This document shows positions 5,318 to 35,625 of a stretch of 37,171 nt of DNA, piece by piece. Below the pieces are notes generated by a model. It did no database searches. It was not told where the DNA came from and saw only the letters and a program-made list of their open reading frames with translations. This stretch comes from Synergistaceae bacterium (lineage in GTDB: Bacteria > Synergistota > Synergistia > Synergistales > Aminobacteriaceae): the NCBI GenBank assembly GCA_017445205.1, contig JAFSUP010000096.1, positions 1-37,171 on the forward strand. The letters run 5' to 3'. The first letter of the stretch is position 1. The number at the start of each line of letters is the position of its first letter. The position numbers and the translations under genes are program-made.

Positions 5318-6239
5318 TGTTCACAAAGTTATATTCGCGGCTTCCGAGTCCGATTTCGGCGGCGTGTTCAAGAGTGTGAATGCCGTGTCGCGATTCCATT
5401 CTCTTAATTAAAGACTCGCCGTCGGGAGCTTTGTAAACTAAATCGACACAAGCCTGATCGAGTGCTACAGGGTCAAGCGAACCTAAAATTCCAATGTCGT
5501 GCATGTCGGGAGCGGCCGGGTTTCCGTCGCAGTCGCAGTCAACGCTTAAATGATTCATGACGCTGATGTAAAGCATTTTTTCACCGTTGCCGAACTTGTC
5601 TGAAACAGATTTTGCGGCTTCAGCCATTGACTCTAAGAAAGCGTCTTGGTCATCGTACCAGATGCTCCCTGAGTCTTTTGTTCCCGCTGTGTGAATTACG
5701 ACTTTACCATGCGAGGAGCCAATGCCGATTGAAATATTTTTGATTGCTCCGCCGAAGCCTCCCATAGCGTGGCCTTTAAAGTGTGACAGGACTAAAACAA
5801 AATCGTAATTATTCAAGTGTGAGCCGACGTAATTTTGTTTCAAGTGCTTGCCACCTGTAACTGTCAAAGGCGTGTCGCCGTCTTCGTCCATGATGTCAAC
5901 TTTTGCAATTTTTGTGAAGCCGTGGTCTTCAGCTACTTGCTTGTGCATAGCCGTTGAAGCTCTTGAACCGCCGTAAGCTGTGTTGCACTCGACTATAGTT
6001 CCGTTGACCTTCTGAACGAGTTCTTTAATTAAATCCGGTGAAAGATAATGAGTGTTTCCTGCCTCGCCTGTGCTAAGCTTCACAGCGACTTTGCCGTCAG
6101 CTTCGCGCCCGAGCTTGTTGTAAATCGCCATTAAGCCGGCCGGTGAAATATCTTTTGTGAAGAAGACCGCCGGAGCTTCAGCGAACGACGCGCCCGCAAA
6201 AATCGAAACGAGCAGCAACGAAGTTAAAAAAGTTTTCAT
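5310..6239 (-). CDS. DUF362-family protein with an added signal peptide
   Basis: The first 20 or so residues (MKTFLTSLLLVSIFAGASFA) form a Sec signal peptide with an ASFA cleavage site. The mature chain starts VFFTKDISPAGL and carries the features of the roughly 310-residue, ferredoxin-less DUF362 proteins: VAVKLSTGE, NGTIVECNTAYGGSR, LVLSHFKGHAMGGFGGAIKN, SVDCDCDGNP and LGSLDPVALDQACVDLVY. The function of the family is not established; the CxC pair and acidic residues could bind metal or a cluster. Relatives usually lack a signal peptide, so export is the odd feature. A good AAAGGAG precedes the ATG. It is the first gene of a probable operon with the permease and is divergent from fbaB with a 109-base gap. 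Confidence 0.82.
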   Translation of the reverse strand: MKTFLTSLLLVSIFAGASFAEAPAVFFTKDISPAGLMAIYNKLGREADGKVAVKLSTGEAGNTHYLSPDLIKELVQKVNGTIVECNTAYGGSRASTAMHKQVAEDHGFTKIAKVDIMDEDGDTPLTVTGGKHLKQNYVGSHLNNYDFVLVLSHFKGHAMGGFGGAIKNISIGIGSSHGKVVIHTAGTKDSGSIWYDDQDAFLESMAEAAKSVSDKFGNGEKMLYISVMNHLSVDCDCDGNPAAPDMHDIGILGSLDPVALDQACVDLVYKAPDGESLIKRMESRHGIHTLEHAAEIGLGSREYNFVNID

Positions 6240-11424: not shown

Positions 11425-14400
11425 TTATCTTAGGAAATCTAACAAGCTCGGCTGAATTAATCTAGCAATAACGGCCAAGTTCGCTTGATACATGTAATCC
11501 GCCATCATTAACTGCGAAATCACGTCCGCAGGGTCTGCTTTAACAAGTTTATCTTGTTCGTCAGTCATGACGTAATTTTCATTGGTTAATCGTTCGGTGT
11601 TGTAGTTGTAGCGCGCTTGCAAAGCTCCATCTTCGGCCATGACACTCAAAATATTATTTATGAAGTCGTCAACGCGCGGAAGCATTTTTTCGAGAAGGTC
11701 ATCTCTGTTTCCGGACTCGATCGCCGCGATAACGTCGTTAATCGTTCCGAAGCCGTTTTGTTTCATAGTGTTTGCTCCGCTTCGTACTGTGGCATTTTGA
11801 GTGTGAGCACCAGTGTTATATAAATCGTTTCCAAATCCGCGAGGTTGTGTAACCGTTGCTGCGCCCGAGGCATCGTACTCGTACATAATATAGGCTTTAT
11901 CTTCAAGATCGTAGCCGCCTCGATAGTGCGTTCTGTTCAAGACCCAATCGTGATCGCCTGAGCCAAGAAAATCATTCGTAACATTGTTGGTGCTGCCATT
12001 TTTGAAGAAGTCGATTTTGATTGAGTAGCCACGCGGCGAATACACCACAAGCTCTTCATCATCGTTGATTAAGGCTCTGACGTCTTCGTCCTGCATTCGT
12101 GCATTTATAAATTCGACGATGTCATCGGCTTTGATTTCGTCATCGTTGGTGACGTCGCGAATAGTCGTTAAGTCGAGTGTGTGTTTATAACCTGCCACTT
12201 CGATAACAAGAGTATCAGCCGGGAAATCCACAGCTCCGGAGTTATATTCTTGTGCGTTCACGTCCCAATTAAAAGACATAATCGGCACGGCAGTGTCGGC
12301 AGTACGTCCTTGAATCCCCGTCGAAAGGCCAAGAGCGTCTTCGGCAATGTGTCCCTTAATGTCGAGGACGTTCACGGCGGAGCCATCAACCGATGAAATC
12401 GAAATCAAAGGAAAATCGCCCGCGTTACGAGCGTCAAGTTGGCCCATATGAGTGTCATAATAATTAACGTAAAGCCAATCACCGGCCTGCACTCGCAATC
12501 TGTCCATAACGTCTTTCACGGTGTCATCTTCGTTTACGTCAATGTCAACACTGTGAGCAAGATTTGAAAATCTTATTGTGCCGTTTGTGAAGCGCAAATT
12601 ATCCGGGTTTGATTCGATATTGAGATATTTTTCTGCCACGTCTTGTGTGTCGTAGGCTTCGGCAAAAGTCGCATTGTCAATCATTTTCACGTGAGTTTGT
12701 TTCAAATTTGAAGTAACGCCGCCGTGAATCCCCATTTGAGCAGCTAAGCCGCCGGAATAATCGTTCCATTCGGGGTCATTAAAAGGCATATCGACGACCG
12801 TAAACGCTTCGCCCGAAAGAAAATACATTGAGCAAGAGCCGTCTATGTCTTTGCCGGTGCTGTCAACGTGTTGAGCAAAGCCCATGATGTCATAGCCTTC
12901 GATTTCGTTCACTTGGTCAACGATTTCTTGCATTAATAAAGCGCGATCTACAAAGCCGGTTTCTTTGTCAACAACTTTTGATTTTTTTATGTCAACGTCG
13001 TAATACATTCCGCAGTTCATTTGAACTCGCATAGGCACGCCGACATTATCATCGACGCACGGAGCAGAAGGGAAATTCACGCACTTCATGCCCGTTCCAA
13101 CCCGGTCTTTAGTGTAAGCGTCGGTTCGCAAAGCGGAAGAAAGATTCATTTTGTCGGCATAGTTATATTCGTTCATGTCTAAAAATATAACTTGCTCGCC
13201 ATTAAAACCACGCATAACGATTCGTTTCGTCTCTTCTTCGTAATCGTCCGAGTGATTAGAAAGCGTTTCTTCTGTAACATCATGGCCGCCCGGCTCAACG
13301 GTAACTTCGAGCCAACCTGCTCCGGCGTTTTTAAGACGATCGGCTAATTGTTCGATTGTATATTCACCGGAATTTAATTTTATATCGACGCTGTGTCCTC
13401 CACTGATGACGCGCCAATGAAGCTGCGTATCGTCTTCGACTTTTAATTTTTCGTCGGGAGCAAACTCGCGGCTCTTTGTTGCCGTTTCCATTCCGAGATA
13501 ATCAAAAATATCTATATGACTTTGATCAGTGTTGCGAACTGTGGATTTAATTATAACGGAGTCTTTTACGATTTCGTCATCATCGTTTCGGAACTCGCCG
13601 AAAAGTTTTTTTGCTCCGCCTTCGGCCTTTATGACGAGCGAAGGATAGTGCAAAGCTTCTTCGGCTTCGCTGATGTTTAATCTATCTGCGGGAATGTCGC
13701 CAATACGTTCGGCTAAAATTTCAATGCTGTTTCCGTCGGCTGAATGACGAGCGTAAATTCCCTCGATTGCGTTAATTTTTCCTGCGAGAGTTTCGGGCGT
13801 GTCGTCTTCTGTGATTTCGATAGTCGTTTCTGTAACAGAGCCGTCAAGCGTCGAAATTGTGAGCTTCGATGCTTCACCTTCAAATTCTAAATTCCAGCCT
13901 TCACCGTCAGCTCCGTCGCTCATATTGAGGCTCTTAATAGTCGCAGGCATAGGCATATAATCAGTATCGGGCCAGCCGGTTATGCCGACTTTCTCGCCGG
14001 TGTTGGATTTCAAATATAATTGTTGAGTTCCACTTTCATAATCTCGTTCTATATAAGCCGTTACGAGCATGTCCGCGCCTTGTTCTTCGAGTGAACGATT
14101 TACGATTGTCGCGAGGTCGTCAAGGCTGATTCCTGAAAGTTCGTTCGGGTCTCTGAATCCGTTTGCATCTGTGAAATTTAAGCTCTGAATATTTTCTTCG
14201 TTTGCAAATTCTTCTGTATGCTTGTTAGTTTTGTTTATGTCGGAGTCGCTCCAGTCTTCAGGAATGAAAACCGCGATTGTGCGATTGCCGACTGTAATTT
14301 GAACTTTTTCTTCGCGGCCTGTCCATTTCCAATCAAGCGGGACTTTGTGGGAGCAAATAAAATAAGTATCTTCGTTTTCTGGGATAATGTCGCTGCCAGT

Positions 14401-14934
14401 GAATGAGACATCGCCAAGAAGACTTTCACTCAAAACATATTTAATTCTGTCGTCAGAACCGCGATATTCGACAGTGCCGTCAGCTAATTCGACAAAAGGA
14501 GCGTCGCCAGAACTCGTGCCCCCAAATAAATATTGCCCGGCTACTTTTGTGTTTAAGTTGTCGAGCATGATTTTTTTATTTGCTTCTATTTGTGCGGTGA
14601 TGTCCTTTAGCTGGCTAGAGTCTAAAGCGGCATCGCCAGCTTCGATTATTAAATTTCGGATTGTCTTAGCCGCGTCGAGGACGTTTTGAAGCGCGCTATC
14701 TGCATATTTGAGCATCGTCAAGGCATCGTCAGTGCTGCTTTGATACTGATCGTTTGCATTTATGGCAGATTGAACAGTGAGCGAGCGCGATATTGCCGCA
14801 GGATTATCCGAGAGTTTTGAATATTTATTGCCTGAAGCTATCTGCTGTTGAAGGTCTTGAATATTTCTCTGATTTTGCCGCAGCGTATCCATCAGGCTCC
14901 CATACATTGTCGCAGTTGTTAGACGGCTGTACAT
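11425..14934 (-). CDS. flgL: Flagellar hook-associated protein 3 (hook-filament junction), greatly enlarged
   Basis: FlgL joins the flagellar hook to the filament and is exported by the flagellar type III system. The ends are canonical. Residues 1-145 hold the flagellin-like helices (TLRQNQRNIQDLQQQIASGN, NPAAISRSL, and GQYLFGGTSS at the end). The last 130 residues hold the partner helix, ending ADYMYQANLAVIARLIQPSLLDFLR. Between them lie about 900 extra residues, so the protein has 1169 residues against a usual 300-500. The insert is acidic and modular: HSVDIKLNSGEYTIEQLADR near 512 resembles HSVDIDVNEDDTVKDVMDR near 792, like repeated flagellin-IN-type domains. AGGAGG precedes the ATG. It is last in the flgMNKL operon and converges with valS. 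Confidence 0.9.
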   Translation of the reverse strand: MYSRLTTATMYGSLMDTLRQNQRNIQDLQQQIASGNKYSKLSDNPAAISRSLTVQSAINANDQYQSSTDDALTMLKYADSALQNVLDAAKTIRNLIIEAGDAALDSSQLKDITAQIEANKKIMLDNLNTKVAGQYLFGGTSSGDAPFVELADGTVEYRGSDDRIKYVLSESLLGDVSFTGSDIIPENEDTYFICSHKVPLDWKWTGREEKVQITVGNRTIAVFIPEDWSDSDINKTNKHTEEFANEENIQSLNFTDANGFRDPNELSGISLDDLATIVNRSLEEQGADMLVTAYIERDYESGTQQLYLKSNTGEKVGITGWPDTDYMPMPATIKSLNMSDGADGEGWNLEFEGEASKLTISTLDGSVTETTIEITEDDTPETLAGKINAIEGIYARHSADGNSIEILAERIGDIPADRLNISEAEEALHYPSLVIKAEGGAKKLFGEFRNDDDEIVKDSVIIKSTVRNTDQSHIDIFDYLGMETATKSREFAPDEKLKVEDDTQLHWRVISGGHSVDIKLNSGEYTIEQLADRLKNAGAGWLEVTVEPGGHDVTEETLSNHSDDYEEETKRIVMRGFNGEQVIFLDMNEYNYADKMNLSSALRTDAYTKDRVGTGMKCVNFPSAPCVDDNVGVPMRVQMNCGMYYDVDIKKSKVVDKETGFVDRALLMQEIVDQVNEIEGYDIMGFAQHVDSTGKDIDGSCSMYFLSGEAFTVVDMPFNDPEWNDYSGGLAAQMGIHGGVTSNLKQTHVKMIDNATFAEAYDTQDVAEKYLNIESNPDNLRFTNGTIRFSNLAHSVDIDVNEDDTVKDVMDRLRVQAGDWLYVNYYDTHMGQLDARNAGDFPLISISSVDGSAVNVLDIKGHIAEDALGLSTGIQGRTADTAVPIMSFNWDVNAQEYNSGAVDFPADTLVIEVAGYKHTLDLTTIRDVTNDDEIKADDIVEFINARMQDEDVRALINDDEELVVYSPRGYSIKIDFFKNGSTNNVTNDFLGSGDHDWVLNRTHYRGGYDLEDKAYIMYEYDASGAATVTQPRGFGNDLYNTGAHTQNATVRSGANTMKQNGFGTINDVIAAIESGNRDDLLEKMLPRVDDFINNILSVMAEDGALQARYNYNTERLTNENYVMTDEQDKLVKADPADVISQLMMADYMYQANLAVIARLIQPSLLDFLR

Positions 14935-14949
14935 TTTATTTCTTCCTCC

Positions 14950-14979
14950 TAAAAATTCCTGACTCCTACTTGCTTTATC
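14950..14979. repeat. Partial heptad repeat between flgK and flgL
   Basis: Read on the minus strand, GCAAGTAGGAGTCAGGAAT lies just after the flgK stop and shares GCAAGTAGGAGT with the copy between flgN and flgK. It has no complementary arm or T run, as expected inside an operon. Confidence 0.6.
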
Positions 14980-17900
14980 GGCCTACAAGCCCCATGCCGT
15001 TAATGATAGTGTTTAACATCTCGTCCATGGTCGTTATATAACGCGACATTGCACCGAACGCGCGATTTAATATCACCATGTCCATAAGTTCTTCATCTAT
15101 GTTCACGCCCGAAACGGCTTGACGCTGACTGTCTATTTGTTCGCTGACGGTCGATTGTGTAGTGTACATTAATTTTGCATGACCTGCTTCAGTTCCAATT
15201 TGCGATAACATAGCGTCATAAATCCCGCTGATAGTCATTGTGCCATGCTCAAGGACTTTTGAAAAATTCAAGTCGTTCATTCGTGAAGCGTTTGTGCCGT
15301 CGCCGCTGCCACCGCTGACGCCTTTAAGGGCTTTGCCGTCCGAGTCTTTTTGTCCCATTGCAGCGCCAATTAAAGATGGATCATAGGCGACGCGGTCATT
15401 GACTTTTAATTTTTCTGACGCTCCCGACTGGAAAGCAAGATTATCAAAGAACGCTACGCCTGTTGTCGTGATGTCGCTTGCTATTCCATAACCTGAATAT
15501 TGAAGAGCATTAATGTTTTTCACAAGTCCATAGGCCATTTCGTCAAGTTCGGATTTAAGATTAGGAATCATTCCGTCGCGAGATTCTTCGAGAGCCTTAA
15601 TCGATCCTTCGCGGATATGATGTCGCACTGTAATTACAGCGTTGCCGGCGGCTTTAAGGTTCAGCCACATTCCCTCGCTAACTTCCGATAATTCCGTAGC
15701 GCTGTAACGATTTTCTGTTGACGTCGAAGGGATTCGCCGCGCCATGTTAAATTTATTATCTGAAGAAAGATAGCGAACGCCGTTCAAACTAAATGAAGCG
15801 TCATTAGCAACGCCGGATTCAGGAATGTAAGCGATTTCTCTGAAACTTGTTAAATATTGTGTCCTGTTATTAGGGTCTCTTACGCTAGATTTTATTTGCT
15901 GATTTCGAGTGAGGCCAAGACGTCGCAACACTTGCATATTTCCATCTTCTGAACCCATGAGCGTAATTCGTTGAGCTTCACCGGCGACGTTAGCAGAAAT
16001 TTCAAGATAGCCTTTGTCAACTGAAGCATGAACCCATTGCTCCGGCTCTGTTAATCCAAATTCAGCTTGATATTTTTCGTTTATCTTGTTGCGAATTGTT
16101 ACGAGGCTATCAGAATTTTCAACGTCAATCGTAATCACGGGATTTTCATTTTTAATTCCCATTCGTTCAGCTAAATCGCCTTCTACGTCAGTTATAGATA
16201 AAAGATGATTTTCGCGGCTCTCAACATAAAATTGCGTGTAAGTTCCCGAGGCTGATTTTCCAGTTGTGACGGACAAATTCACGAGAGCGGGATTATCAGA
16301 ACTGGAAGCCGCATCGAAAGTTGCTGTCATGAAGTCGGATAAATCTTTCACGGTGAGAGATGAGCCTACGGTCTTTGTGGTCCCTAAATCTGAAGTCAAA
16401 ACCCATCTTTCTGTAGAACTGTTCCATGAGGCCGTAAAATCCACTTGATCGCCAGAAACACCGATTCTAAAAGTATGACGCTCGCCGGTTGTGCCTTCGC
16501 CCAAAATGTCGCCTTCAGAAAGTCCCTTCGCGGGATTGTCGCGAAAAACGTTTGAAGTTACTCGCGTTCCCTGCGTGCCAACTTGGATTCTAAAAGAGCC
16601 GGAAATATTCAGCGAGTCCGTAACGCTACCAGGTTCTGTGCGCATGTTGACATCGGTTAATTCTTCTTTGACTTCGATTAAAGTTCCCAACATTCCCGAA
16701 TAATCCGAGATTTCGATCGGCGACTTGTCATTAATTTTATTTCCGGAGCTGTCTTCTCTATCCGCCGTGAACGTGATACTTGTGGCCGTGTAACTCGCTT
16801 TCACATTGACATTTACATCGTAATCATCTGCGGAGATTTCAGCAGCTTCGTTAATAAAATCTGAAAGTTCAGAAACGTCGAGTTCGGTGCCTGCATTGAA
16901 GGACTCAAATAAATCTGCGCCGCTGTCATCTTTAGCTTCGCCGTTGAGTTCCGCACGCATAATCCATTCGCCGTTTATGTCCTTGTCGATTTTGATTGTA
17001 AGCACTGAAGGCTTTTCGTTGCCATCAAGAGTCCTGAACGATAATTTATAAGGTATATCCGCGGAGTCTGCCGTTAAAATTTCTCCGCCGTCAAAAGATG
17101 AAGTCTGAGCAGCACGAACTTCGAGGCAGTGAGCATTACCGCCGCCTGCTGTCCATTCGACGCCGTTCGCAATTCTGTCCACGTTTAATTGAAAAGTACC
17201 GTCAGGGCCGGTCGCAAGAGCTTCAGCTACGTCGGTGTTGTCAACAATATCAAACTCGTTTTCAGCAACTTGAACATCATAATAAACTTGATTATCCCAC
17301 ATGAACGCATGAGCTTTTAATTCACGAACGTGAACTCCTTGAACGAGAACGCGCCCGTTTACAGATAGAAAGAATTCTCCTTTGACGCCGTTGCGTTCTA
17401 ACGGCTCATTATAGGAGATGTCCATCATTTTAGAGAGTTTATCAAGAATTAAATCGCGCTGATCATATAAGTCATTTGCATTTTGTCCGAGGGCTTCGGC
17501 TGTAGTAATTTCTTGATTTAGGGCAGCAAGGTCATATAACATCTGATTAGCTTGTGTTACAGACTGCTGAACTTCCATATTAATAGACTCGTTGTAAGTG
17601 TTGAAATTATTAATCAAATTTTCGAGCATTCCGCCGATAGAGTTTGCCGACTCCACGAGAGCAGTGCGCGCGCTTGTGTCCTCTGGAGATTTTTGCAAAG
17701 TTTGCATGTTCGCAAAAAAAGTATCCATTGAAGAACGCAAGCCTTCAGAATTAGGTTCAGGAATGTAATTTTGAATAGCGTCGTAAAGATCGTTAATTTT
17801 TTCCCAATATCCTAAAGTCGCTTGATTATCACGAAATTGAAAATCTAAAAATTCATCGCGGATTCTCTCAATCGTGCTGGCGTACATGCCCTGACCTAGT

Positions 17901-18070
17901 TGTCCGACGTGCGGAATGTCTTCGGGCGTTACAGTTGAAAAAATTACGCGCTGACGAGAATAACCGTCAGTGTTCATGTTCGATATATTGTGCCCGACGG
18001 TCTGCATTCCTAGTCTAAAGGCGTTTAATGCGGATTTGCCCATTTCGATGCCGCCGAAAGTGCTGCTCAT
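14975..18070 (-). CDS. flgK: Flagellar hook-associated protein 1 (hook-filament junction), enlarged
   Basis: The N-terminus carries the flagellar rod/hook motif (MGKSALNAFRLGMQTVGHNI, then NMNTDGYSRQRV), and residues 60-215 form the helical D1 region with long coiled segments (NDLYDQRDLILDKLSKMMD). The C-terminus, SGVNIDEELMDMVILNRAFG ending in an amphipathic helix, is the usual closing domain. At 1031 residues it is about twice the usual FlgK. The insert includes two related modules: one around 337-465 (YKLSFRTLDG..., ELDVSELSDFINEAA) and one around 530-600 (HTFRIGVSGDQ..., SLTVKDLSDFMTATF). A flagellin-IN-like stretch with SLVTIRNKINEKY follows. GGAGGAG precedes the ATG at 18070. The gene is in an operon between flgN and flgL. 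Confidence 0.93.
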   Translation of the reverse strand: MSSTFGGIEMGKSALNAFRLGMQTVGHNISNMNTDGYSRQRVIFSTVTPEDIPHVGQLGQGMYASTIERIRDEFLDFQFRDNQATLGYWEKINDLYDAIQNYIPEPNSEGLRSSMDTFFANMQTLQKSPEDTSARTALVESANSIGGMLENLINNFNTYNESINMEVQQSVTQANQMLYDLAALNQEITTAEALGQNANDLYDQRDLILDKLSKMMDISYNEPLERNGVKGEFFLSVNGRVLVQGVHVRELKAHAFMWDNQVYYDVQVAENEFDIVDNTDVAEALATGPDGTFQLNVDRIANGVEWTAGGGNAHCLEVRAAQTSSFDGGEILTADSADIPYKLSFRTLDGNEKPSVLTIKIDKDINGEWIMRAELNGEAKDDSGADLFESFNAGTELDVSELSDFINEAAEISADDYDVNVNVKASYTATSITFTADREDSSGNKINDKSPIEISDYSGMLGTLIEVKEELTDVNMRTEPGSVTDSLNISGSFRIQVGTQGTRVTSNVFRDNPAKGLSEGDILGEGTTGERHTFRIGVSGDQVDFTASWNSSTERWVLTSDLGTTKTVGSSLTVKDLSDFMTATFDAASSSDNPALVNLSVTTGKSASGTYTQFYVESRENHLLSITDVEGDLAERMGIKNENPVITIDVENSDSLVTIRNKINEKYQAEFGLTEPEQWVHASVDKGYLEISANVAGEAQRITLMGSEDGNMQVLRRLGLTRNQQIKSSVRDPNNRTQYLTSFREIAYIPESGVANDASFSLNGVRYLSSDNKFNMARRIPSTSTENRYSATELSEVSEGMWLNLKAAGNAVITVRHHIREGSIKALEESRDGMIPNLKSELDEMAYGLVKNINALQYSGYGIASDITTTGVAFFDNLAFQSGASEKLKVNDRVAYDPSLIGAAMGQKDSDGKALKGVSGGSGDGTNASRMNDLNFSKVLEHGTMTISGIYDAMLSQIGTEAGHAKLMYTTQSTVSEQIDSQRQAVSGVNIDEELMDMVILNRAFGAMSRYITTMDEMLNTIINGMGLVGR

Positions 18071-22940: not shown

Positions 22941-22949
22941 TGCTATAAT
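22941..22949 (+). promoter_or_regulatory. Extended -10 promoter for the glycosyltransferase-flippase pair
   Basis: TGCTATAAT is a perfect extended -10 element, 36 bases before the TTG start at 22986. No clear -35 box is present. Confidence 0.55.
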
Positions 22950-22985
22950 GAACAAACTCAAAGACTTTTTGCGGAGGTTGTTATA

Positions 22986-24032
22986 TTGAAAAATAGATTT
23001 CATTCGCCACTTGTCAGCGTCATAGTGCCGGTGTTCAATGTCGCGCCTTATATTCGCGAAGCGTTGGACAGCGTCGTAAGTCAGACTTACAAAAATCTCG
23101 AGTGCTTTCTCGTTGACGACGGCTCTACGGACGACTCTGGAAAAATCTGCGACGAGTACGCCGCGCGTGATGATCGCTTCATTGTAATTCATCAAGAGCA
23201 TCAGGGAGTCAGTGCTGCGCGTAACGCCGGGCTTGACGCAATGCGCGGGGAGCTTGTTGCGTTTCTTGACCCCGACGACGCTTATCGCCCGGAGTTCGTT
23301 GGCTCTATGGTCGAAGCGATGGAACGTGAAGAGGCCGATATTGTTGCGTGCAAATATACTATTCACTATACAACTAAGAAAATTACAGCAACCGGCCACG
23401 AAAAAACTTATCCGACAATTCGGGGGGGGGTATACGATTGGCGAGCAACGCTCAAAGAATTAGCAGATAGTAAGATTAATGTCTCTGTTTGGAATAAGCT
23501 GTATATCAGGGAACTTTGGAAAGATATTCGCTTCCCAGTCGGACAATTACACGAGGACAACGAAGCGACATATAGGATTTTTGAATTTTGTAAGAAGTTT
23601 TATGTTGTAAATCAGCCTTTATATCTTCATAGGAAACGCCCCGGAAGTATTACAACTACTATATCACAGATAAGTATCAACGATCAAATTTTAGCAAACT
23701 CTTTCGTTTGTTCTTTTATCGAAGCACGAGTCCCAGAATTTTTCACAAAAGCACACTTACAAAAACATCGTCAAGGATTTCTTAACTCGATGATTATTAA
23801 TTTTGCCCGTTGCTCTTATGAATCAGGCGACGAATGGAAAACACTTCGCGCGGAACTAAAAAACAAAATCATTGAGTTAGAAAAAGAAGTTGGAATTAAA
23901 AATTGCGCGCCTCGTACTCGCGTGGCCTTCTTTATGTTCAAAAATTGCCCGTGGCTTTTGAGTCCCGCGTATAAATTCGTGTGGCCGCTGCTTCGATCGT
24001 TAAGAGATTTTCTGAAGGGTAGACGTGGATAA
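22986..24032 (+). CDS. Family 2 glycosyltransferase with an in-frame G9 tract
   Basis: A GT-A-fold glycosyltransferase transferring a sugar from a nucleotide-sugar to a surface glycan, probably at the inner face of the membrane. The 348-residue protein begins VSVIVPVFNVAPYIREALDS, has the UDP-binding VDDGSTDDSG (43-52), and has the metal-binding motif in LVAFLDPDDAYRPEF (D95-D98). HEDNEATYRIF in the middle is typical of acceptor-domain residues in this family. The start is TTG, with GGAGG at a good distance. A run of nine G (23422-23430) encodes part of RGGV (146-149); loss or gain of one G would end translation within 11-16 codons. The flippase gene overlaps the end by 8 bases. Confidence 0.9.
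   Translation: MKNRFHSPLVSVIVPVFNVAPYIREALDSVVSQTYKNLECFLVDDGSTDDSGKICDEYAARDDRFIVIHQEHQGVSAARNAGLDAMRGELVAFLDPDDAYRPEFVGSMVEAMEREEADIVACKYTIHYTTKKITATGHEKTYPTIRGGVYDWRATLKELADSKINVSVWNKLYIRELWKDIRFPVGQLHEDNEATYRIFEFCKKFYVVNQPLYLHRKRPGSITTTISQISINDQILANSFVCSFIEARVPEFFTKAHLQKHRQGFLNSMIINFARCSYESGDEWKTLRAELKNKIIELEKEVGIKNCAPRTRVAFFMFKNCPWLLSPAYKFVWPLLRSLRDFLKGRRG
23422..23430 (+). repeat. G9 homopolymer tract inside the glycosyltransferase gene
   Basis: Nine consecutive G after a C, read CGG-GGG-GGG-GTA. With eight G the frame becomes RGGYTIGEQRSKN then TAG; with ten G it becomes RGGGIRLASNAQRISR then TAG. No other homopolymer of this length in G or C occurs in a gene of this window. Confidence 0.9.
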
Positions 24033-25395
24033 AAGGCGAGGCGTTCTGAACGTCAGCGTTTCGATTTCTTCAAGAATTATTTTGCTGGCGTCGGCTCTAG
24101 TCGTTAGGCGGCTATTAATTCGCTATATCGGAAATGACGTCAACGGCCTTAACTCTTTATATGCAAGCATAATCGGCATGTTGACAGTGGCGGAGCTTGG
24201 AGTCGGAAGCGCGATTGTGTTCTCAATGTACCGTCCGATAGTCGCAGGCGAGAAAGAAAAAGTCGCGGCGCTGTACCTTCTTTATAAAAAATTGTATCGA
24301 ATTATCGGCGCGGTGATTTTTTGGGCGGGCTTGTGCGTGATTCCGTTCTTGCCGTTGCTCGTCAACGATTACGAAAAAATTAACGTCAACGTCTATACAA
24401 CATTTTTTTTAACGCTTGTGTCCGTGGTTTTGACTTACGGTTACAGCGCGAAGACGTCTTTAATCGTGGCACACAAAAATAATTACATCACTACGGCTAT
24501 TATGACGGTCTCAAGGCTAGCGAGCGACGCTTTACAAATTGCAGCAATTTTAATTTATAAATCTTACGTTGCATTTTTAATTTGTAGTATCATTGAGACG
24601 CTTTTAATTTGGGGATTGACCGAGATAACCGCGCGGCGACTTCACGGGGACATAATAGCCATGAACGAATTCATAGACCCTGCAACGAAATCACAAATTG
24701 TTCGCAACATCAAGGCCATGTTCATGCACAAAATCGGTTCGATTCTCGTGAACTCTATCGACAGCATGATTATTTCAAGTTTTATCGGCGTGGTTGTGCT
24801 TGGAAGATATTCTAATTATGCGCTAATCGCTCGCACGTTGTCAGGAACGCTTGGATTATTTTTTTCACCGTTGACATCGATAATCGGGCATCTTTGTGTT
24901 TCAGAATCTCCCGAACGAATCGAAAAATATTTTAAACGTTTCTATATTCTTAATTACGTCCTCGGCGCGGCGGCGTTCTTGGGATATTATATTTTTGTCG
25001 ATTACGCTGTAATTTTGTGTTTCAGCGAAGGACTTGGCGTGTCGCGTTCAGTGGTTTATGTCATCACGCTGAATCAATTTATTCAATTTATGCGAATGAC
25101 GACGCTTTTATTTCGGGACGCGTCAGGAAGTTTTTATTACGACCGTTGGAAGCCCTTGGCCGAGGGCGTGGCGAATTTAATTTTATCGTTAATTTTTGTG
25201 AAAATTTTTCCTGAAAATTATCGTGTTGTCGGAGTCATCGTTGCAACGATCATAACGAATTTATTAATTTGTCATATTGTGGAGCCGTATGTAGTTTTTC
25301 GGCATGTGCTTTATAAAACACCGTGGGGATTTTATATTAAAAATTTTTTTTTCATAGCGTTGTTCGCGAGTTTGTTGTTAGGATTGAGGAGTTAG
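24025..25395 (+). CDS. Wzx-like polysaccharide flippase
   Basis: A 456-residue protein with about 12-14 hydrophobic helices, resembling polysaccharide export flippases of the MOP superfamily. Hallmarks are the start VLNVSVSISSRIILLASALV, GNDVNGLNSLYASIIGMLTV near 34-53 and AELGVGSAIVFSMYRP directly after, as in oligosaccharide flippases. It would move lipid-linked sugars made by the preceding glycosyltransferase. It begins with GTG at 24025, overlapping the glycosyltransferase stop by 8 bases, so the two are coupled; a frameshift in the G9 tract would also reduce its translation. The last codons (GLRS then TAG) are made of heptad repeat sequence. Confidence 0.82.
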   Translation: MDKRRGVLNVSVSISSRIILLASALVVRRLLIRYIGNDVNGLNSLYASIIGMLTVAELGVGSAIVFSMYRPIVAGEKEKVAALYLLYKKLYRIIGAVIFWAGLCVIPFLPLLVNDYEKINVNVYTTFFLTLVSVVLTYGYSAKTSLIVAHKNNYITTAIMTVSRLASDALQIAAILIYKSYVAFLICSIIETLLIWGLTEITARRLHGDIIAMNEFIDPATKSQIVRNIKAMFMHKIGSILVNSIDSMIISSFIGVVVLGRYSNYALIARTLSGTLGLFFSPLTSIIGHLCVSESPERIEKYFKRFYILNYVLGAAAFLGYYIFVDYAVILCFSEGLGVSRSVVYVITLNQFIQFMRMTTLLFRDASGSFYYDRWKPLAEGVANLILSLIFVKIFPENYRVVGVIVATIITNLLICHIVEPYVVFRHVLYKTPWGFYIKNFFFIALFASLLLGLRS

Positions 25396-35555: not shown

Positions 35556-35565
35556 TTTTTAGTTA

Positions 35566-35625
35566 GGAATTAGGAGTGAGGAGTTAGGAGTTAAAAATTT
35601 TTTCTTGCTTCTCACTTCTCACTTT
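35566..35625. repeat. Heptad repeat with hairpin between livJ and livH
   Basis: Units TTAGGAA, TTAGGAG, TGAGGAG and TTAGGAG are followed, after an AT stretch, by CTTCTCACTTCTCAC. AGGAGTGAGGAG pairs with CTTCTCACTTCT over 12 base pairs, two of them wobble, with a loop of about 24 bases. No T run follows the second arm. It may stabilise the livJ part of the mRNA rather than end transcription. Confidence 0.7.

Follow-up and report, generated by a model that had tools for sequence, protein, structure and literature searches.

The window, by which we mean the whole 37,171-nucleotide stretch of DNA that was analyzed, contains a gene for a 348-amino-acid glycosyltransferase at 22,986–24,032 and, immediately after it, a gene for a probable polysaccharide flippase at 24,025–25,395, both on the plus strand. 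The transferase open reading frame begins with a TTG codon, and a ribosome-binding-like GGAGG (22,973–22,977, plus strand) lies 8 nt before it. A promoter scan returned no confident promoter for this gene; a -10-like hexamer read from the sequence, TATAAT at 22,944–22,949 on the plus strand, was not among the output of the scan, is not accompanied by a good -35 element, and is a candidate only. The transferase matched Pfam Glycos_transf_2 with 138.6 bits (E = 2.6e-40; cut-off 23.3). Its predicted structure (model pLDDT 88.7) has a GT-A fold, and the fold matches coincide with its best solved relatives: GalT1 (5hea), which is the closest by sequence, and the teichoic-acid transferases RmlT, TarS, and TarP. 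We also found a DxD-type motif, DPDD, at residues 95–98 and a catalytic-type Glu-Asp pair at residues 190–191, the aspartate of which (D191) was invariant in an alignment of 17 homologs. By family score, fold, and motifs, the protein is thus a GT2 glycosyltransferase. When public genomes were scanned with the transferase, only three distant relatives were found in other lineages.

The flippase gene starts with GTG and encodes a Polysacc_synt-like membrane protein of 456 amino acids. The assignment draws on the Pfam scores of homologs: the window protein itself had no Pfam match, a 33%-identical relative (locus L083) passed the Polysacc_synt cut-off of 28.2 bits with 29.7 bits, and the ortholog in genome G042 (75% identical) fell below it with 19.6 bits. 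A PDB profile search with the flippase gave nothing useful, and a scan of viral contigs found no relative of it. Elsewhere in the window, the minus strand encodes FlgL (1169 amino acids; 11,425–14,934) and FlgK (1031 amino acids; 14,975–18,070), each very large for a hook-associated protein and matching its family at the ends only. Just past a gene for an ABC substrate-binding protein, a short array (35,561–35,593) holds 4.7 tandem copies of AGTTAGG.

The host genome is a MAG of 1,922,108 bases (1.92 Mb) in 133 contigs and is 80% complete. Synergist-CTERM sorting signals (TIGR04564) exceeded the cut-off in this genome and in 8/8 of the genus relatives that were searched, as well as in another family of the order. 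They did so in 0/14 control genomes. This places the host in the Synergistota; a search for 16S rRNA in the host genome and its genus gave no hit.

Within the transferase gene, nine consecutive G occupy 23,422–23,430 on the plus strand. A preliminary description had located this run at codons 146–149 of an intact gene and had predicted that the loss or gain of one G would bring an early stop; both statements held. The run lies at exactly these positions, in codons CGG GGG GGG GTA of an open reading frame of 348 codons. By frame calculation, 8, 10, 11, or 13 G would give products of 158, 161, 159, or 162 amino acids, and 6, 9, or 12 G would keep the frame (347–349 amino acids); a change of a single unit from G9 therefore moves the product from 348 amino acids to 158 (G8) or 161 (G10). 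The catalytic-type D191 sits beyond the stop in the shortened forms. In dinucleotide-shuffled windows, only 0.01 runs like G9 were expected per window. Most GT2 paralogs that lack a tract are gapped at these residues, where the alignment shows a variable loop, and the confidence of the transferase model was lower near residues 131–150 (block means of 71 and 68), suggesting that the tract sits in a tolerant loop.

Long G runs were far more frequent in the host genome than its composition predicts. We counted 15 separate G or C runs of at least nine where 0.32 were expected, and 8 runs of exactly G8 where about 1.7 were expected, giving 23 runs of at least eight against an expectation of about 2.0; all of these expectations are geometric extrapolations of the decay in runs of 3–6. 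Runs of 8, 9, 10, and 11 occurred 8, 11, 3, and 1 times, a distribution similar to that of Campylobacter with its maximum at 9–10, and there were 6 runs of exactly G7. In the fetched host-genome DNA, which was picked around runs of at least nine and is therefore enriched in the upper part of the spectrum, lengths 4–11 were represented by 230, 28, 5, 0, 0, 11, 3, and 1 runs. The length spectra of genomes G026 and G042 were excluded as evidence, since exact G9 was the criterion by which these loci had been chosen. Runs of G9 were present in 41/41 genus genomes searched, in 82/83 family genomes, and in 168/188 phylum genomes, the last a comparison in which GC content was not controlled and which we do not use as proof. 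Such an excess in the length and number of homopolymers is one of the features by which poly-G phase variation is recognized.

We then considered which genes carry such tracts. In six sampled genomes the carriers were mostly glycan genes, with a minority of tracts in promoter spacers; this is a plain tally of the Pfam matches among the sampled carriers. In genome G032, where 23 tracts were sampled, the transferase carriers included a FucT-domain fucosyltransferase and GT2, GT4-type, MUCI70-type, acyltransferase 3, and hexapeptide transferases. Further carriers there included two polysaccharide pyruvyltransferases, LicD, a CDP-alcohol phosphotransferase, a sulfatase, an amino-acid permease, and a lipoprotein-like MACPF-domain protein. 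Other genomes added GT11, FkbM methyltransferases, GLF, and LRR or PKD proteins, and the host genome also has tracts in genes for UbiA, radical SAM, LRR, DUF4230, and dynamin-like proteins. The carriers are thus mainly surface-structure genes, as in known poly-G phase variation, and non-surface proteins among them include the amino-acid permease and the dynamin-like and DUF4230 proteins. Two of these loci deserve separate mention. The G032 lipoprotein-like gene (L081 5,735–8,446, minus strand) has a weak MACPF-domain match and an in-frame G10 just past the signal region, and on host contig C106 (L016 366–2,990) two radical-SAM genes lie in tandem, both of which carry a C9 close to where the domain begins at its 5′ end; the tract is in frame in one gene and out of frame in the other.

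Among 123 exact-G9 contexts from the genus, 14 had TTGAC within 13 nt on the 5′ side of the tract, compared with 1.2 in shuffles (maximum 6) and 1 in a downstream control. On host contig C120 (L018, about 5,720–5,770), TTGACA is followed by a 19-nt spacer containing G9 and then by TATTAT, about 85 nt before a gene for a predicted secreted protein; the G9 in this promoter-like spacer is a candidate transcriptional switch.

We propose, with a probability of about 85%, that slipped-strand changes in the G9 tract phase-vary the gene of a surface-glycan glycosyltransferase, and that this poly-G switch is one of about 15–23 in the genome. This reading, already put forward in the preliminary description, is largely supported by the excess of tracts, the effect on the frame, the glycan carriers, and the differences in length and frame among homologs that are described below. 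During replication the tract would gain or lose one G. With nine (or 6 or 12) G, the full GT-A enzyme would be made, the ON state that the window contains; with eight or ten, translation would end at about 160 residues, the OFF state. Because this stop precedes the active-site Glu-Asp pair, the sugar would not be added when the gene is OFF. The product of the transferase presumably lies at the cell surface, and with glycan genes each bearing their own tracts, the cells of a population would form a mosaic with respect to surface structures. Within a strain, switching would be reversible and of high frequency. The flippase may be affected as well: as had been noted earlier, its GTG at 24,025 overlaps the transferase stop codon (24,030–24,032), by 8 nt, which makes polarity or coupling plausible, so that a change in the tract might have a polar effect on the flippase. 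A weak ribosome-binding-like GAAGGG before the flippase start (24,014–24,019, plus strand) could permit flippase expression while the transferase is OFF.

To see how the tract behaves in relatives, we compared one genome per species, and the variation reported is accordingly between species. The closest relative of the transferase, in G042, is 59% identical, is followed by the same flippase (75–76%), and has a G10 in frame. Homologous GT2 genes carry the tract at the matching place in G026 (two genes, one with an out-of-frame G10 and the other with an in-frame G9), G031 (G12, in frame), G017 (G14, out of frame), and G034 (G10, near a contig end). The relatives are therefore not uniformly nine, and none was seen to encode the tract residues by mixed codons; either outcome would have told against the preliminary description. 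In many further glycan genes of the genus, tracts like these were likewise found in frame or shifted; a pair of CDP-alcohol phosphotransferase genes, for instance, had G11 in frame in G017 and G10 out of frame in G032. One could argue that the window tract is effectively fixed, that is, short, rarely changing, and kept in frame, and that switching takes place only at longer tracts elsewhere: the reading frame is kept in the window gene as well as in its closest ortholog, with OFF forms seen in homologs only, and nine G is not far above the shortest lengths that are mutable. We regard this as unlikely. The ten G of the ortholog, with compensating length differences nearby, indicate that the tract has changed in length since the two genes split, and in G026 many exact-G9 tracts shift the frame of genes that are open apart from that. 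Nine is also the commonest length of poly-G tracts in Campylobacter, where a PhasomeIt survey found 9 G in 53% and 10 G in 26% (PMC6321876).

Frame was next scored for tracts flanked on each side by 200 or more open bases, with controls taken from the same loci. Of 37 G runs of at least nine inside long reading frames, 16 were in frame and 21 were shifted. The corresponding numbers were 80 and 4 for G/C runs of five, 17 and 1 for G/C runs of six to seven (5/102 shifted for 5–7 combined), and 21 and 0 for A/T runs of at least eight; Fisher tests of the long G runs against control runs gave 7e-6 and 1e-10. Control runs were rarely or never shifted, so general homopolymer miscounting is not the cause of the shifts. 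Long intact frames persisted beyond the tract in the shifted genes, as expected if these genes are ON part of the time. Such frames would also be expected at a recoding site, where ribosomal or transcriptional slippage yields full-length protein from out-of-frame copies with the DNA unchanged. This explanation is very improbable, since the window gene is already in frame and needs no recoding, homologs differ in tract length and occur in all frames whereas programmed sites hold a fixed frame relation, promoter-spacer tracts exist for which recoding is irrelevant, and transcriptional slippage, where it is known, usually takes place on runs of A or T. An artefact of sequencing or assembly, through poly-G miscalls (for example, two-colour Illumina no-signal bases) or homopolymer miscounts, is hardly credible even though the genus genomes used are all probably MAGs and one host-genome run lies at a contig end (C114:1–9), because the tracts otherwise lie inside contigs, in both orientations, recur at the same site in homologs of different genomes, and concentrate in glycan genes, while A/T runs of eight or more were shifted in 0/21 cases.

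The sequence flanking the tracts showed a further regularity. The dinucleotide TA stood directly 3′ of the tract in 12/14 host-genome loci and in 23/23 loci of G026 (33/34 of those listed genome-wide), TGCG stood there in 6/12 loci of G042, and in G012 many tracts were directly followed by a CAAAATTACTTA-like sequence. By species (G026, G042, G012, and the host genome), the 3′ motifs were TAAC/TAAA, TGCGACTT, and CAAAATTACTTA. After shorter runs of G3–G6 in the same DNA, TA stood in 3–19% of cases and TGCG in no more than 1%. The 3′ motif was found in unrelated genes, in both coding orientations, and in promoters, and is therefore probably a feature of the DNA rather than of the proteins. Behind this species-specific motif there might be a process acting on DNA that generates or preserves the switches, either by seeding or copying tracts or through a bound protein that governs slippage; the tracts would then be more than chance homopolymers retained by selection, a suggestion that we consider doubtful but conceivable. 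On the 5′ side, a ATCAGTAATWATGC-like sequence recurs 10–20 nt before tracts in different genes of G012, G035, G036, G032, and G031 (for example, at L036 1,845–1,880) and shows partial complementarity to the AATTACT found 3′ of the tracts.

Overall, poly-G tracts occur across a whole uncultivated Synergistota genus, and apparently across much of the phylum, at numbers ranging from a few to dozens in each genome. They are largely on glycan genes, which would extend multi-locus phase variation to another phylum, and lone broken glycan genes in these MAGs would often be OFF switches rather than pseudogenes. The question can be tested with existing metagenomic reads. Among the papers searched, none reported phase variation for Synergistota or Synergistaceae, an absence that is not proof of novelty.

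In Helicobacter pylori, the fucosyltransferase genes futA/B and futC are phase variable through poly-C/G tracts. The genus resembles this system in having tracts in FucT-domain (L063) and GT11 (L065, L089, and L123) transferases, whereas the window gene is a GT2. In Campylobacter, reading frames contain 77% of the poly-G tracts, and each strain has between 5 and 81 affected genes (PMC6321876). The tracts described here resemble that phasome in being many per genome and mostly of 9–10 G, in lying mostly in reading frames of surface-structure genes with G on the coding strand, and in occurring in ON and OFF states among homologs. The differences are that the Synergistota are a different phylum, uncultivated, in which switching is proposed from comparison between genomes, and that the tracts of this genus have a species-specific 3′ motif. 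We know of no report of such a motif in Campylobacter. Lastly, Neisseria porA is switched by poly-G in a promoter spacer (PMC3639595). About a tenth of the sampled genus tracts similarly lie between -35-like TTGACA and -10-like elements, in predicted promoters, whereas the window tract is coding. Slipped-strand poly-G phase variation is a known kind of switch and is very probably found here in a new phylum.
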